From positions 1 through 8,839 of the forward strand of contig QGVE01000115.1 of assembly GCA_003242675.1 (NCBI GenBank): a stretch of DNA of 8,839 nt, written 5' to 3'. The stretch's first letter is position 1. Every line of letters begins with the position of its first letter. Positions 489 to 8,165 of this stretch are shown piece after piece. Made by a program: the position numbers and the translations under genes. The notes beneath the pieces were generated by a model. That model was not told where the DNA came from, searched no databases, and saw only the letters and a program-made list of their open reading frames with translations. Source of the stretch: Bacillota bacterium. Its GTDB lineage: Bacteria; Bacillota_E; Symbiobacteriia; Symbiobacteriales; Symbiobacteriaceae.

Positions 489-1172
489 GTGCAGAGGTTC
501 ATCCGCTTTGCCATCTTCCTGGCCGCCGTCCTGGCGGCGGTGTTGGTCACAGGGAGGAGCATGGCCCGCATGCACAGAGGCACTGACCTTCGGTGGGAAC
601 CCAGGCACATCCGCATCGACGAGGCCCGGATCGCCGAGATCGACAGTGCCATGGACCTGATCGAACCCCTGTGGTGGACCGTGGAGACCACGAGCCCCGA
701 GGCCTACGAGGCGAGCCTGGCGCCCTTCACCCGGGCCCAGCGGCTGGTGTACGCGATCGAGATGTACCGGGCCGAGGTGGACAACGGCGGCCACGGCCAG
801 TTCTACGGCAACTCCAGCGGCATCGTCTGGCGCGACGCTTTAGCCGGGTTCGAGTGGCTGGGGCTCACCGAGCTGGCGGAGAACCTGCGCGCGTCAGCGG
901 ATCTCCTGGGCGGCGACCCGCCCCTCGACAGGTGGGAGCGGGAGGCGCTGCTGCAGCGGCTGAAGCCGGACTTCAGCGGAATCACCCGTCGGTTCTGGGA
1001 GCTGGATGCGCAGACCGACGTCGACGCGGTGATCCTGCAGTACGCCCGGGCCCACCCGGAGGCGTTCCGGTTCGACGGCATGGTCCGCGTGCCCGCCTCC
1101 GACAACGTGGTGTTCAGACAGTACATCTTCTGGTTCTTCCCATCGCCGTGGGTCCGGCAGGAAAGAAGGTGA
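489..1172 (+). CDS. Membrane-anchored DUF4375 (DMP19-like) protein
   Basis: The 227-residue protein starts at GTG, with GGGAGG seven bases upstream. Residues 5-22 form a single hydrophobic segment after a short basic start, so it is either a signal anchor or an uncleaved signal peptide. The body carries the DUF4375 signature: a helix QRLVYAIEMYRAEVDNGG (84-101) followed by GQFYGN (103-108), then the helical repeat ALAGFEWLGLTELAENL. DUF4375 includes DMP19 of Neisseria, a DNA-mimic protein, but most members are uncharacterised. The membrane segment argues against a cytosolic DNA-mimic role here. The stop lies five bases before the oxidoreductase start, so the two are probably co-transcribed. 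Any role in the metal-pterin system is inference from this spacing only. Confidence 0.8.
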   Translation: MQRFIRFAIFLAAVLAAVLVTGRSMARMHRGTDLRWEPRHIRIDEARIAEIDSAMDLIEPLWWTVETTSPEAYEASLAPFTRAQRLVYAIEMYRAEVDNGGHGQFYGNSSGIVWRDALAGFEWLGLTELAENLRASADLLGGDPPLDRWEREALLQRLKPDFSGITRRFWELDAQTDVDAVILQYARAHPEAFRFDGMVRVPASDNVVFRQYIFWFFPSPWVRQERR

Positions 1173-1177
1173 AGCGA

Positions 1178-3154
1178 ATGCCCACGCAGCTGGGCGGCTA
1201 CATGGGACGGATGCTGAAAATCGACCTGACCACCCGTCAGGTGAGCGAATACCCGATCTCCGATGAGCAGCGGAAGCGGTACCTGGGCGGCAAGGTGCTG
1301 GCGGCCCGCATCCTGGCCGACCTGATCACGGGCCCCCTCGACCCCTTCGGGCCCGAGAACGTCATCGTCGTCACCACCGGGCCGCTCACCGGCACCGGCG
1401 CGCCCATGGCCAGCCGCTTCAACGTCTCCACCATCTCCCCCCTCACCGGGCTGCTCACCTCCTCCAACTGCGGCGGCTCCTTCGGGATCCACCTGAAGAA
1501 GGCCGGCTGCGACGGGCTGATCATCACGGGCCGGGCCGAGGCGCCGGTCTGGGTGGAGATTGCGGAGGACGGCGTCCGCTTCCACGACGCCGCCCCCCTC
1601 TGGGGGATGACGACCAGCCAGACCCAGGCGGCGCTGCCGCCCCGCACGGGCAAGCTGGTCATCGGGCCGGCCGGGGAGAACCGGGTCCGCTACGCCGGCC
1701 TGGTCAGCGACGACCGCATGGCCGCCCGGGGCGGCGTCGGCGCGGTCTTCGGCGCCAAGAACCTGAAGGCGCTGGTGGCCCACGGCCGCCAGGTGGTGCC
1801 CATCGCCCACCCGGAGCGGTGGCGGGAGCTGCAGAAGACCTGGGTGCAGGAGCTGCGGGCCCATCCCATCACCGGACGGCAGCTTCCCCGCCTGGGCACG
1901 GCGGGGCTCCTCGCCGGGATGCAGGCCCACCGGATGCTGGCCACCCGCAACTTCAGCCGGGGTCAGTTCGCGCAGTTCGACGCGGTCTCGGGCGAGACGC
2001 TGGCCGAAGAGCACCTGGTGAAGAACGGCGGCTGCACCGGCTGCCCCGTCCACTGCGGGCGGGAGGTGATCCTGCCGGAGAAGGCCGAGGGTGCGGCCGA
2101 CTTCGGCCCCGGCGCCGCTGCAGGGACAGGCCCGACTCCCGAGGCTTCCGGCGGCGGCAGGGCCGGCCGGCGCGTGAAGGGCCCCGAGCTGGAGACCCTC
2201 GTCCTCCTGGGGCCCAACCTGGAGAACGCCGACCTGGCGGAGATCATCCGCCTGAACCACCAGCTGGACGAGCTGGGAATGGACTCCATCTCCACCGGCG
2301 GCACCCTGGCCTTCGCCATGGAGCTGAGCGAAAAGGGGCTCTGGAGCAATGGCCTCCGCTTCGGAGACGTGCGGAACCTCTCGCAGATCATCGACGACAT
2401 CGCCCACCGGCGGGGCATCGGGGACCTGCTGGCCGAGGGCACCCGGCGGCTGGCCGAGCGCTTCGGCGGCAGGGAGTTCGCCATGCAGGTGAAGGGGATG
2501 GAGCTGCCCGCCTACGAGCCCCGCGGGGCCGTGGGCCAGGGGCTCGGCTATGCCGTCGCCAACCGGGGCGCCTGCCACCTGAATGCGGGCTACCTGGCCG
2601 TGCTGGAGGGGCTGGGGCTCGAGATGGACCCCCACACGCCGCGGTCCAAGGCCGCGCTCACCATCCTGATGCAGGACCTGATGGAGGCCGTCTCCGCCGC
2701 CGGAAACTGCCTGTTCAGCGCGTACGACGTCTTCCCGGCCCCCCTCCTCGACCGGCCCAACAGCTGGCTGACCCGGGCGGTCAACAAGATCCTGCCCTGG
2801 GTCGGGGGCCCCGTGGCCCTGATCCTCTGGCTGCGCTGGATGCCCATCCACCTGCCGGGGCTGCCGGTCACCCGGGCCCTGGAGGCGGTGACCGGGATGA
2901 AGATGGACCTCGGCCGCCTGAAGCTGATCGGCGAGCGCGGGTACAACCTGGAGCGGCTGGTCAACACCCGCCTGGGGGTGACGGCCGCCGACGATGATCT
3001 GCCCGAGCGGCTGAAGGCGGTGGAGCAGGTGCCCGGTGATCCCCGCACCAAGGTCCCGCTGGAACCGATGAAGCGGCAGTACTACCGGCTGCGGGGCTGG
3101 ACCCGCGACGGCGTCCCGGCGCCGGCCCTGCTGCGCCGGCTCGGGATCCAGTAG
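1178..3154 (+). CDS. Aldehyde:ferredoxin oxidoreductase family enzyme (tungsten/molybdenum bis-pterin)
   Basis: The 658-residue protein belongs to the AOR family. These enzymes oxidise aldehydes to acids with ferredoxin through a tungsten or molybdenum bis-pterin centre and one 4Fe-4S cluster. The start MPTQLGGYMGRMLKIDLTT is typical of the family, and AAGGTG six bases upstream supports the ATG at 1178. The cluster ligands are visible as C286-x2-C289-x3-C293, with the fourth cysteine at C511 (GNCLFS). The pterin-loop motif D364-ELGM-D369 is present, as is the segment LPAYEPRG near 447 followed by GLGYAVANRGACHL. The usual D-x-x-G-L-C around the last ligand reads SAAGNC, lacking the Asp. A Gly/Ala/Pro-rich insert (about 305-333) after the cysteine cluster makes it longer than the roughly 605-residue Pyrococcus AOR. 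It is cytosolic. The substrate cannot be told from sequence. It is followed 11 bases later by a MoaD-like carrier. Confidence 0.93.
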   Translation: MPTQLGGYMGRMLKIDLTTRQVSEYPISDEQRKRYLGGKVLAARILADLITGPLDPFGPENVIVVTTGPLTGTGAPMASRFNVSTISPLTGLLTSSNCGGSFGIHLKKAGCDGLIITGRAEAPVWVEIAEDGVRFHDAAPLWGMTTSQTQAALPPRTGKLVIGPAGENRVRYAGLVSDDRMAARGGVGAVFGAKNLKALVAHGRQVVPIAHPERWRELQKTWVQELRAHPITGRQLPRLGTAGLLAGMQAHRMLATRNFSRGQFAQFDAVSGETLAEEHLVKNGGCTGCPVHCGREVILPEKAEGAADFGPGAAAGTGPTPEASGGGRAGRRVKGPELETLVLLGPNLENADLAEIIRLNHQLDELGMDSISTGGTLAFAMELSEKGLWSNGLRFGDVRNLSQIIDDIAHRRGIGDLLAEGTRRLAERFGGREFAMQVKGMELPAYEPRGAVGQGLGYAVANRGACHLNAGYLAVLEGLGLEMDPHTPRSKAALTILMQDLMEAVSAAGNCLFSAYDVFPAPLLDRPNSWLTRAVNKILPWVGGPVALILWLRWMPIHLPGLPVTRALEAVTGMKMDLGRLKLIGERGYNLERLVNTRLGVTAADDDLPERLKAVEQVPGDPRTKVPLEPMKRQYYRLRGWTRDGVPAPALLRRLGIQ

Positions 3155-3165
3155 GGGGTAGGGAC

Positions 3166-3402
3166 ATGGTCACCGTGCGGCTCTTCGGCACGCTCCGGCT
3201 GGACGCCCGCCGGCGCCGGGTCGAGGTGGATGCGGCGACGGTGGCGGAGGCCTTGCAGATGGCCGCCGCCGCCCTGGGGCTGCCCGATCCGGGGCCGCTC
3301 CTGCAGGCGGCGGTCTACGTGAACGGCGAGCGGGCGGGGCTGCGCACCCGCCTGAAGGACGGAGACGAGCTTTACCTGCTCTCCCCCGCGGCGGGGGGAT
3401 GA
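3166..3402 (+). CDS. MoaD/ThiS-family sulfur carrier protein
   Basis: This is a 78-residue beta-grasp protein ending in the diagnostic Gly-Gly (residues 77-78). In this family the C-terminal glycine is adenylated by a MoeB/ThiF-type E1-like enzyme, becomes a thiocarboxylate and donates sulfur, in MoaD's case to form the dithiolene of molybdopterin. Visible family features are the opening strand VTVRLFGTL, the helix AEALQMAAAALGL, the strand AVYVNGE, and the end DGDELYLLSPAAGG. The start follows a purine-rich GGGGGTAGGGAC, 11 bases after the oxidoreductase stop, so the two are almost certainly one operon. Placement next to an AOR enzyme favours tungsto/molybdopterin synthesis over thiamine. 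No MoaE or E1 enzyme lies in this window. Confidence 0.88.
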   Translation: MVTVRLFGTLRLDARRRRVEVDAATVAEALQMAAAALGLPDPGPLLQAAVYVNGERAGLRTRLKDGDELYLLSPAAGG

Positions 3403-4528: not shown

Positions 4529-5245
4529 ATGCCCAAGTCCAGGGGAGGCCGCTCCCTCAGCCGCCAGAAGGACAGGAGCCTCTGGTGGGTCGTCGGCATC
4601 GCCGTCGGGGTCACCGCGGCGCTCATCGTGGCGAGCAACGTCACCGCACGCCGGCTGGGCGAGATCCGGCTGCCCGAAACCATCCTCACCGACCAGGAGC
4701 GGGGCGGCGAGCGCAACGTGCTCGGCCGCGCCGATGCGCCGGTGGAGCTGGTGGAGTTCAGCGACTTCCGCTGCCCGGCCTGCATGGACTCGCACTTCAC
4801 CCTGGGCGACCCGATCGCGCAGCTGGTGGCGGAGGGCACCGTCCGCTACGTCCGCAAGCACATGCTGGTGATCGACCCGGCCGACACGTCCCTGAACGCC
4901 GCCGAGGCCGTGGAGTGCGCCGCCGACCAGGGGTACTACTGGGCGTTCCACGACCTGCTCTTCCTCAACCAGAGCGCGCACGGGCAGAAGTGGACCCGCG
5001 GCGCGATGCTGACCTACGCCCGGGAGCTGGGGCTGGACACGAAGGCCTTCGGCGAGTGCATGGATCAGCAGAAGTACCGCGACAAGGTGCTCGCCGACAA
5101 CGCCGAGGGCTACTCCACCCCCGGCATCACGGGCACTCCCTCGTTCCTGGTGAACGGCGAGCTCCTCCGCCTGCAGCGGTCGTTCTTTGAGGTCATCGAC
5201 GCCGTTCAGGCCGCAGCCGGCCAGTCCGCCGGGCAGGGGCAGTAG
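4529..5245 (+). CDS. Membrane-anchored DsbA/BdbD-type thiol-disulfide oxidoreductase
   Basis: The 238-residue protein starts at ATG with AAGGGGG about ten bases upstream. Residues 1-17 are strongly basic and residues 18-36 form one membrane anchor, placing the domain outside the cell. The thioredoxin-fold part begins near RNVLGRADAPVELVEFSDF and carries the active site C82-P-A-C85. It also has a DsbA-type helical insertion (about 120-195) and the cis-proline loop GTPSF with P204. The length and architecture fit the DsbA/BdbD family, which makes or exchanges disulfides in exported proteins. A further cysteine at 130 (VEC) and one at 177 (GEC) could form a structural disulfide. The gene has its own promoter and stands tail-to-tail with a second thioredoxin-fold oxidoreductase 45 bases away. 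Whether it acts as oxidase or reductase cannot be decided from sequence. Confidence 0.9.
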   Translation: MPKSRGGRSLSRQKDRSLWWVVGIAVGVTAALIVASNVTARRLGEIRLPETILTDQERGGERNVLGRADAPVELVEFSDFRCPACMDSHFTLGDPIAQLVAEGTVRYVRKHMLVIDPADTSLNAAEAVECAADQGYYWAFHDLLFLNQSAHGQKWTRGAMLTYARELGLDTKAFGECMDQQKYRDKVLADNAEGYSTPGITGTPSFLVNGELLRLQRSFFEVIDAVQAAAGQSAGQGQ

Positions 5246-5290: not shown

Positions 5291-5953
5291 TCACTGCCGC
5301 GCGGCCCGGTACAGCTCCGCCACGAACTCCGCCTCCGGACGGGGGCCGGCGAGCACGACCCGCTGCGCCCCGTCGATGACGGTGTGGGGCACGGACCGGA
5401 CGCCGCTGCGCCGGGCCAGTTCCGGGAACGCGGCGGCGTCCACGGCGTACGCCCGGATGCGGGGGTTCTCCATCGCCGCCATGTGCGCCAGGCGAACCGC
5501 CTGGGGGCAGCGGGGTCAGGTGGGGCTGGAGTAGACCTGGATCACCAGGTCCCGGTCGATCGCCCGGATCAGGGCCCGGGCCGGCCCGGTGAGGCGGGTC
5601 TCGCCGCGGGAGACGTCGATCAGGTCCTCCAGCAGCACCGCGAAGTCCACTCCCATCGGCACGCCGTAGAAGCGGATGCGCGTGTCCCGGCCGGCGCCGT
5701 CGAGCAGGGCGAGCGCCGGCACCTGCCCCACGCCGTAGGCGGCCGCTTCGGCCCGCCCTTCCGGGCCGGTGCGGGACTCCACGGTGATCTTGCCGTCCGA
5801 AAGCTGCGCCAGGTCGCCCAGCAGGTCGCACAAGGCGTGGGTGGACGGATCCCGGGCAGTGGCGAAGAAAAAAAGAATCCGCACCGGCGCCCGGAGGTGC
5901 TCGGTGAAGAGGCTCTTCACCTGCCGGCGCTGGGCAGCGGAGAGCGGGTTCAA
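5291..5953 (-). CDS. Selenocysteine-containing protein disulfide oxidoreductase (PDO, double thioredoxin fold)
   Basis: Reading the TGA at 5518-5516 as selenocysteine gives a 220-residue protein, the normal PDO length (226 in Pyrococcus furiosus). TTG at 5953 is the start, with AGGAGG eight bases before it. Domain 1 (about 20-120) has strand VRILFFF, cis-Pro P79 in GQVPAL, RFYGVPMG and LEDLIDVSRGET. Domain 2 (about 130-220) has IQVYSSPT-U146-PRC149-PQAVRLAHMAAMEN, FPELA, and cis-Pro P189 in RSVPHTV. The TGA falls exactly where relatives carry the first Cys of CPYC, so the active site would be U-x-x-C. In domain 1 the CxxC position reads DPST, so only the second site can be redox active. PDOs catalyse thiol-disulfide exchange in the cytosol. 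Other genes here use TGA as an ordinary stop, so global recoding is unlikely. If Sec is not inserted the product is a 145-residue fragment. A nonsense pseudogene is the main alternative. Confidence 0.85.
5475..5511 (-). promoter_or_regulatory. Candidate bacterial SECIS element
   Basis: On the coding (minus) strand, CCAGGCG and CGCCTGG (5504-5488) form a perfect 7-bp upper stem around the loop GTT; if the last pair opens, the loop is GGTTC. A lower helix GCTGCC/GGCGGC (5511-5506 with 5480-5475, one G-T pair) extends it. The loop-proximal GGT begins 18 bases after the TGA, close to the GGTC loop position of the E. coli fdhF element. A G within the first two loop bases is the known bSECIS hallmark. 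The fold was judged by eye. Confidence 0.65.
5516..5518 (-). other. In-frame TGA, putative selenocysteine codon 146
   Basis: This TGA interrupts a frame that is PDO-like on both sides with no shift in frame. It replaces the N-terminal cysteine of the catalytic CxxC, and the codons after it are CCC CGC TGC (Pro-Arg-Cys). Confidence 0.82.
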
Positions 5954-6162
5954 TCCTCGTTCCTCCTCAGGGGCCTTCCCTCGCGACGTGGGGGAGGGCC
6001 CGTTTCTATGGTTCCCGTATTCGTGCCGGCCGCCCGCGGTCCCTGCCCCGGCTCCCCGACCGGGCCGGAACCGCCAGCCGGCCCTATCGTCATGACGCTT
6101 CACACGAGCGCCTCCGGACCTGCCCCTGCTCCGGGTGCGGGCCGGAGGCACTGTGCTGCGCA
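5954..6162. other. Non-coding gap between the DUF1992 and PDO genes
   Basis: These 209 bases lie downstream of the DUF1992 stop and upstream of the selenoprotein on the same strand. They contain a long-loop inverted repeat (GCCTCCGG 6110-6117 with CCGGAGGC 6142-6149) that may end the DUF1992 transcript. I see no convincing gene. An AT-richer patch near 6000-6025 (minus strand ATACGGGAACCATAGAAA) could hold a promoter, but no clear hexamers were found. Confidence 0.4.
5962..5967 (-). promoter_or_regulatory. Ribosome binding site fixing the TTG start of the PDO
   Basis: A perfect AGGAGG on the minus strand lies eight bases before TTG at 5953-5951. It decides the start, because the frame stays open far upstream but encodes only GC-rich, family-unlike sequence there. 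Confidence 0.8.
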
Positions 6163-7590: not shown

Positions 7591-8046
7591 CTAGGCCAGG
7601 TACTCCCAGGTGGAGTGGAACGGCACCTTGGCGGCGTTGATCAGGCCTGCGGCCGGGCAGCGGGCCTCCACCTTCTCCTTCAGCTCATTCAGCCGCTCCA
7701 GAGGCTCATCGGTCTTGATCTTCACGTTCAGGCGGACCTCGGTGAAATGCGGCTGCACCCCTGGCACGCCCATCAGGCCGCGGACATCAAGCACGCCGTC
7801 GGCCAGAAGTTCCACGGCCTCGTACTGGAAATCCATCTCCTTTGCGACCAGCGCGATCATGACGGACACGCAGCCGTTCAGCGCGGCCATCATGTACTCC
7901 ATCGGGTTCGGACCGGTATCGTCCCCGCCCAGCGCTTCGGGCTCGTCCGAGTAGAAGGGCGGGAAGTTACGGACCCTGAGGGCCGTCCGCACCTTGCCTT
8001 CCCAAGCGCCACGGCAGCGAACGGTCACCAGTTGCGGCTTGTCCAT
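7591..8046 (-). CDS. OsmC-family peroxiredoxin/stress protein
   Basis: The protein has 151 residues starting at ATG 8046, with AGGTGA nine bases upstream; the in-frame extension to 8157 has no ribosome site and crosses the promoter. The OsmC pattern is clear: PNPMEYMMAALNGCVSVMIALVAKE with C59, a beta-rich middle (VLDVRGLMGV, FTEVRLNVKI), and EARCPAAGLINAAKVPF with C130. These are the two active cysteines that reduce organic hydroperoxides in OsmC/Ohr proteins. The GVQPHF middle and short length point to the YhfA/OsmC-like branch rather than true Ohr, so the peroxide substrate is uncertain. It is cytosolic. It appears monocistronic, with its own promoter and a shared strong terminator. Confidence 0.9.
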   Translation of the reverse strand: MDKPQLVTVRCRGAWEGKVRTALRVRNFPPFYSDEPEALGGDDTGPNPMEYMMAALNGCVSVMIALVAKEMDFQYEAVELLADGVLDVRGLMGVPGVQPHFTEVRLNVKIKTDEPLERLNELKEKVEARCPAAGLINAAKVPFHSTWEYLA

Positions 8047-8098
8047 CGCGGCTGTCACCTGCAACACCCCCGGCACACGTGTTGAATCTCGTTCATAT

Positions 8099-8126
8099 AT
8101 TATCGAATTCACTAACCCGCGGCCAA
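8099..8126 (-). promoter_or_regulatory. Promoter of the OsmC-like gene
   Basis: On the minus strand TTGGCC (8126-8121) and GATAAT (8104-8099) are 16 bases apart; TAATAT two bases on is an alternative -10 with an 18-base spacer. The region is conspicuously AT-rich. The transcript would begin about 45 bases before the ATG at 8046. Confidence 0.6.
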
Positions 8127-8137
8127 GGGGTTGCTGA

Positions 8138-8165
8138 CCTATATTGCACGAGAGCAATGCATCAA
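8138..8165 (-). promoter_or_regulatory. Second possible promoter with inverted-repeat operator
   Basis: TTGATG (8165-8160) and TATAGG (8143-8138) are 16 bases apart on the minus strand. Between them lies the inverted repeat ATTGC-n6-GCAAT (8143-8158), well placed for a repressor. It is weaker than the proximal promoter. Confidence 0.35.

Follow-up and report, generated by a model that had tools for sequence, protein, structure and literature searches.

The locus and its reading frame

The stretch of DNA analyzed here (the window; 8,839 nucleotides from a Bacillota bacterium of the Symbiobacteriaceae) carries on its minus strand a 220-codon frame, 5953-5291, whose only internal stop on translation is the TGA at codon 146 (5518-5516). 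The layout is 145 residues, TGA, 74 residues and then a terminal TGA. The original prediction had described this same frame, broken only at this codon, and had expected that standard annotation would split it into a 145-residue protein and a short fragment. Both pieces do exist: the database protein P0003 (145 aa, 99% identical) and a 63-aa ORF at 5482-5291 that starts at ATG 5482. The TTG taken as the start of the full frame is at the same or a nearby position in close relatives; P0006 starts further upstream. The features of the locus are as follows.

5962..5967, minus strand: AGGAGG with an 8-nt spacing to the TTG, likely ribosome-binding site (upstream sequence)
5294..5953, minus strand: predicted coding region of the selenocysteine (Sec) protein, 220 residues, TTG start at 5953 and stop TGA at 5293-5291 (starts of homologues; dN < dS on both sides of the TGA)
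5544..5953, minus strand: N-terminal thioredoxin fold, CxxC lost, limits approximate (sequence match of residues 4-217 to 1a8l; CxxC check)
5294..5543, minus strand: C-terminal thioredoxin fold with the active site, limits approximate (Pfam Thioredoxin_3, residues 138-214)
5516..5518, minus strand: in-frame TGA, probably read as selenocysteine 146 (translation; TGA/Cys codon alignment; hairpin)
5507..5509, minus strand: TGC, Cys149, putative resolving partner in U-P-R-C (translation; TGC/TGT in 77/77 relatives)
5488..5504, minus strand: SECIS-like hairpin, 6-bp stem CCAGGC/GCCTGG, loop GGTTC (fold; pairing in TGA versus Cys genes)
4529..5245, plus strand: gene convergent with the Sec gene, for a DsbG/DsbA-like thiol oxidoreductase that has C-P-A-C and a hydrophobic stretch at its N terminus (ORFs, Pfam, NCBIfam)

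Elsewhere in the window, an aldehyde ferredoxin oxidoreductase gene (1157-3154, plus strand) is followed by a ThiS-family (MoaD-like) gene (3166-3402, plus strand), a usual pairing for tungsten or molybdenum enzymes. The protein from 4529-5245 matches NF041057, the Rcas_1661 (seleno)lipoprotein model, below its cut-off (114.2 of 190 bits), and is a Cys form within a family that has Sec members. An OsmC-like frame at 7591-8157 on the minus strand has no in-frame TGA and scores 73.5 of 95 bits, below the cut-off, with NF041052 (OsmC-related (seleno)protein). A search of the window for tRNA genes found none.

TGA or cysteine at one codon, and a hairpin that follows the TGA

When some 5.8 billion database proteins were searched, 25 matches were found at E <= 1e-5. 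Eight of these entries, 44-99% identical and 143-163 aa long, have their last residue immediately before the TGA position, which is what gene prediction halted by a TGA would give, and thus are without the C-terminal active site. A scan of genome contigs found 77 relatives, in which the codon aligned to the window TGA is TGA in 32 and TGC or TGT in 45; the second active-site codon is TGC or TGT in all 77. The TGA therefore lies opposite the first cysteine of the relatives' CPxC, giving U-P-R-C in the window, and the homologues with an aligned TGA or Cys for which the original prediction had proposed a search are there in number. It had also held that a chance nonsense mutation at precisely this codon was unlikely; a site at which so many proteins end and so many genomic relatives share the TGA bears that out. 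Stops scattered elsewhere and relaxed selection, which it had named as counting against a selenoprotein, were not seen: none of the 32 TGA genes has an additional stop within the aligned part, and dN is below dS in each of the four comparisons made. Close to the end, at aligned positions 206-219, three of the Cys genes carry a TAA or TAG codon.

G001 belongs to a group of five genomes. The gene is present in four of them, each time with a single TGA, at 77, 71, 63, and 53% identity; the fifth (G002) gave no match to the PDO-like gene. G001, the genome of locus L001, also has a second, very divergent PDO-like gene (L090), with one TGA in U-P-R-C and six of six hairpin pairs. The Sec form is present in Acidobacteriota, Chloroflexota, Thermomicrobiota, Bacillota, Spirochaetota, and other phyla of this sample. 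Among viral contigs, 17 stretches fit a pattern and none encodes a relative of the Sec protein. Plasmid records gave 86 matches, all below 60% identity, and 12 of the 20 listed are annotated ahpF.

For selection, the window was compared with four near relatives over the 73-74 codons downstream of the TGA. There, dN was 0.14-0.30 and dS 0.38-1.18, with dN/dS of about 0.37, 0.33, 0.43, and 0.25 for the four relatives, and dN was below dS upstream as well as downstream of the TGA in every comparison. Amino acid identity was 64-80% after the TGA and 46-75% before it, the downstream value being the higher one in each of the four pairs. The downstream length is nearly constant (73-77 codons in the window and the four relatives), and the codons between the TGA and ATG 5482, that for Cys149 included, are conserved. 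By these codon comparisons, the region downstream of the TGA is translated and under purifying selection.

The stem of the hairpin starts 11 nt after the TGA. An Rfam scan of the window gave no family at gathering score, and the single-sequence folding energy of the region was unremarkable against shuffles (z of -0.8 to -1.1). Since the folding energy of a single sequence is uninformative in this GC-rich DNA, we compared TGA and Cys genes instead. The six pairs defined by the fold of the window were scored in 45 Cys genes and in 37 TGA genes, the latter being the window itself and 36 loci, with L087 left out because it duplicates L001. The TGA genes form a mean of 5.2 of 6 pairs, versus 2.8 in the Cys genes. 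All six pairs are present in 25 of the 37 TGA genes, and at least five pairs in 29 of them, versus none of the 45 Cys genes, although near relatives are not independent support here, as the pairs were defined on the window's own fold. Shuffling of the 3' arm reached the observed pairing in 0 of 5,000 trials among TGA genes and in 1,525 of 5,000 among Cys genes. Stem changes in the TGA genes are compensatory, for example, AGGC/GCCT, GCGC/GCGT, and GTGC/GCAC. The element thus looks SECIS-like, covarying and with its pairing limited to TGA genes. The G in the loop is not diagnostic as a Sec marker; it is the second loop base in all 37 TGA genes and all 45 Cys genes.

In eight of the 37 TGA genes, four or fewer pairs form. 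For six of these, from Chloroflexota or Thermomicrobiota (L027, L037, L039, L045, L049, and L075), the six-pair stem fails and a possible stem is seen by eye a few bases downstream; for the remaining two (L040 and L073), no shifted stem was noted. The shifted stems suggest that the position of the SECIS may vary by lineage.

Selenocysteine machinery and other readings of the TGA

We searched 55 genomes for the selenocysteine machinery: G001-G005, the genomes of another 31 TGA loci, and, out of the 45 Cys loci, the genomes of the 19 most identical to the window. This gives 35 TGA genomes, 19 Cys genomes, and G002, without the gene. A selA match over the cut-off was found in 32 of 35 TGA genomes, 5 of 19 Cys genomes, and 1 of 14 controls, and a selB match in 31 of 35, 7 of 19, and 2 of 14, respectively (Fisher P for TGA versus Cys genomes, 1.7e-6 for selA and 1.3e-4 for selB, with shared ancestry ignored). 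The three TGA genomes without selA and the four without selB over the cut-off are weak evidence of absence, since many of the genomes searched are metagenome bins.

For tRNA-Sec, the Rfam cut-off of 47 bits was exceeded in 5 of 14 controls, and six Cys genomes had matches only at 49-55 bits. Presumably not all of those control genomes are Sec users. Because these matches made the cut-off seem too lax, a line at 60 bits was drawn, after the score list had been viewed; 28 of 35 TGA genomes and 7 of 19 Cys genomes reach it. At least one of selA, selB, and a strong tRNA-Sec is present in all 35 TGA genomes, versus 7 of the 19 Cys genomes. In the four near-relative genomes that carry the gene, selA, selB, and tRNA-Sec are all present, and ARAGORN also called a tRNA-SeC in G001; G002 has selA and tRNA-Sec, with selB under the cut-off.

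The gene structure, the conserved TGA, the hairpin, and the co-occurrence with Sec genes in relatives are direct outcomes of computation. From them, we infer that Sec is inserted in this organism as well: the UGA at 5518-5516 would be decoded by the bacterial SelB/tRNA-Sec system, with the hairpin just downstream directing insertion. The original prediction of a probable U-x-x-C selenoprotein is strengthened by the alternation of TGA and Cys, the purifying selection, the covarying hairpin, and the machinery in relatives. Judged by sequence comparison, the window gene is almost certainly a functional selenoprotein gene.

The other readings of the TGA have to accommodate the same observations. 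If it were a nonsense mutation or a read error in a Cys gene, ORF calling with the standard code would stop there, as it does, and a database copy of 145 aa would be no surprise; it would, however, be hard to see why a single TGA is shared at 53-77% identity and by 32 of 77 wider relatives, or why selection and a length of 73-77 codons persist after it, and we regard such a pseudogene or error as vanishingly improbable. One can also imagine that the 145-residue N-terminal protein is the real product and that the C-terminal part is a separate or dead ORF, given the 63-aa ORF from ATG 5482 and the eight database proteins that end at the TGA. Such a product would have no CxxC site at all in the window's branch, and it would not explain the conservation from the TGA to ATG 5482, Cys149 included, or the better conservation downstream than upstream in four of four comparisons; it is extremely unlikely. 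Some bacteria reassign UGA, and reassignment in this organism (to Trp or Cys, for instance) or readthrough by a near-cognate tRNA would also yield a full-length protein. Yet the window gene itself ends with TGA, so UGA terminates here too and is not generally reassigned. Moreover, the site alternates with Cys codons only, Cys genes, unlike TGA genes, lack the hairpin, and the carriers have Sec machinery. This reading, too, is very unlikely, and reading of the TGA as selenocysteine is the one that we carry forward.

Family, likely role, and relation to known systems

Within the product, Pfam places a Thioredoxin_3 domain at residues 138-214. The best NCBIfam model is TIGR02187 (current name, PDO_seleno_TRX), at 178.2 bits over profile positions 3-208 of 209; two AhpF models come next. 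The score narrowly misses the curated TIGR02187 cut-off of 185 bits, and the protein is thus not an equivalog by NCBI's rule. All 48 rows of our alignment A3 match TIGR02187 at E <= 0.001. The AhpF model TIGR03140 gives 65 bits over profile positions 5-180 of 515, below its whole-protein cut-off, as expected for one domain of a longer protein. In a comparison with the sequences of solved structures, 1a8l from Pyrococcus furiosus ranks first (E of 3.1e-33, residues 4-217), and the TGA is aligned with the first Cys of the CPYC in 1a8l; AhpF 1hyu is next (E of 5.8e-11). The original prediction had called the protein a protein disulfide oxidoreductase (PDO). That stands insofar as it is PDO-like, with two thioredoxin folds; it is not a canonical two-site PDO, with CxxC in both folds, since the N-terminal CxxC is gone.

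This loss leaves U146-P-R-C149 as the only such site in the window's branch. Nine of the 37 TGA genes lack the N-terminal CxxC: that of the window, those of its four near relatives, the paralogue L090, and the Sulfobacillus-like L026, L035, and L043. Three of the 45 Cys genes lack it as well. In a tree of 82 sequences, the window clusters with four Symbiobacteria-like genes (support, 100/100), and there are at least 10 changes between Sec and Cys, 3 of them forced by well-supported branches; the bootstrap had not settled. The product would be a free-standing, PDO-like homologue of the AhpF N-terminal domain, with two thioredoxin folds and one working site, in which Sec146 would react with substrate disulfides and Cys149 would resolve the selenenyl-sulfide.

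To ask what such a protein might serve, we can look to its neighbors. Open frames within 4.5 kb were clustered by BLAST in 82 loci, with flanks that were often shorter. A TrxR/AhpF-type flavoprotein is near the PDO gene in 12 of the 82, on the same strand in 11 and within about 470 nt of the site codon in 9; 11 of the 12 are Cys loci, and the sole TGA locus is L059. Four of the twelve flavoproteins were checked by profile HMM: that of L018 passes the thioredoxin reductase model cut-off, those of L059 and L056 match AhpF and TrxR models without reaching the cut-offs, and that of L002 matches Pfam Pyr_redox_2. The L059 neighbor matches the AhpF model from position 211 on only, that is, AhpF without its N-terminal arm, and the PDO gene and flavoprotein gene there resemble an AhpF split in two. 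In 4 of the 82 loci, all Cys, an OsmC-type cluster is found no more than 1.5 kb away; three are ordered OsmC-PDO-TrxR, and one was checked by Pfam.

From the flavoprotein and OsmC neighbors, a relay can be proposed in which electrons would pass from an NAD(P)H-dependent TrxR/AhpF-type flavoprotein to the Sec protein and on to thiol peroxidases of the peroxiredoxin or OsmC type. We lean slightly toward this role, and homology to the AhpF arm and to PDO speaks for it as well; the partners are the weakest part of the explanation. The 4.5-kb clustering found no flavoprotein neighbor in the window's near relatives and no peroxidase beside them, and among the frames identified in the window, neither a flavoprotein nor a peroxidase lies directly beside the gene. 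Some other TGA genes have unrelated neighbors (an M61 peptidase, a pantoate ligase, or a FeMo-Co-like protein). What does lie beside the window gene is the convergent gene for the DsbG-like protein, with a like gene in the same place in three near relatives (L086, L001, and L088); the window copy fell outside the clustering, where a longer antisense frame covers it, and was recognized from ORFs, profiles, and the relatives. The selenoprotein might accordingly do something other than reduce peroxidases: serve the DsbG-like protein, repair disulfides in the cytosol, or handle metal or sulfur compounds. Set against the 12 flavoprotein and 4 OsmC loci, we consider such a role plausible, if somewhat short of an even chance.

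One can envision, more doubtfully, that in the Symbiobacteria-like and Sulfobacillus-like lineages, a two-site PDO lost its N-terminal CxxC and came to do all its redox work at one U-x-x-C, as a detached, selenium-based counterpart of the AhpF arm working for a separate flavoprotein and for peroxidases, and perhaps also for the DsbG-like protein in the window's lineage. Related lineages with Sec and Cys forms lend themselves to a comparison of the chemistry of the two residues; if the exchange has indeed been repeated, the family offers natural Sec/Cys pairs in which to test what is gained by Sec.

The branch has been described previously. A selenoprotein family termed "homolog of AhpF, amino-terminal domain" was given with two members and named for Carboxydothermus hydrogenoformans and Symbiobacterium thermophilum (PMC1794560), and we infer that the S. 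thermophilum entry is an orthologue of the window gene. In the portions seen of two reviews, the family appears under TIGR02187, with U-x-x-C, as a prediction (PMC9312934, PMC13188914), and the family is also reported in Asgard archaea (PMC11227280). The passages seen of a Symbiobacterium study name glycine reductase selenoproteins and not the AhpF-arm gene (PMC1242214), and the word AhpF is absent from the main text of two further selenoprotein papers (PMC12013277, PMC5029168). It is well supported that the window gene joins a known, predicted selenoprotein family and is not a new kind; the present analysis adds independent computational support for a family that those reviews, as far as seen, list as predicted only.

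Our findings here place the window protein among several known systems. Like the AhpF-arm selenoprotein family of TIGR02187, it is a free-standing homologue of the AhpF arm with U-x-x-C, although its 178.2 bits fall under the cut-off of 185. It matches both thioredoxin folds of PDO 1a8l, with UPRC opposite CPYC, but differs in having no N-terminal CxxC and in the replacement of the first C-terminal Cys by what is probably Sec. The AhpF N-terminal domain has lost the active site of its first fold. With that domain (1hyu and 4o5q) and with the TrxR/glutathione-related 5h29 and 6il7, the window protein shares two thioredoxin folds of which only the second site would be active. The arm of 1hyu is fused to its flavoprotein and uses Cys, whereas the window protein is separate and would use Sec.
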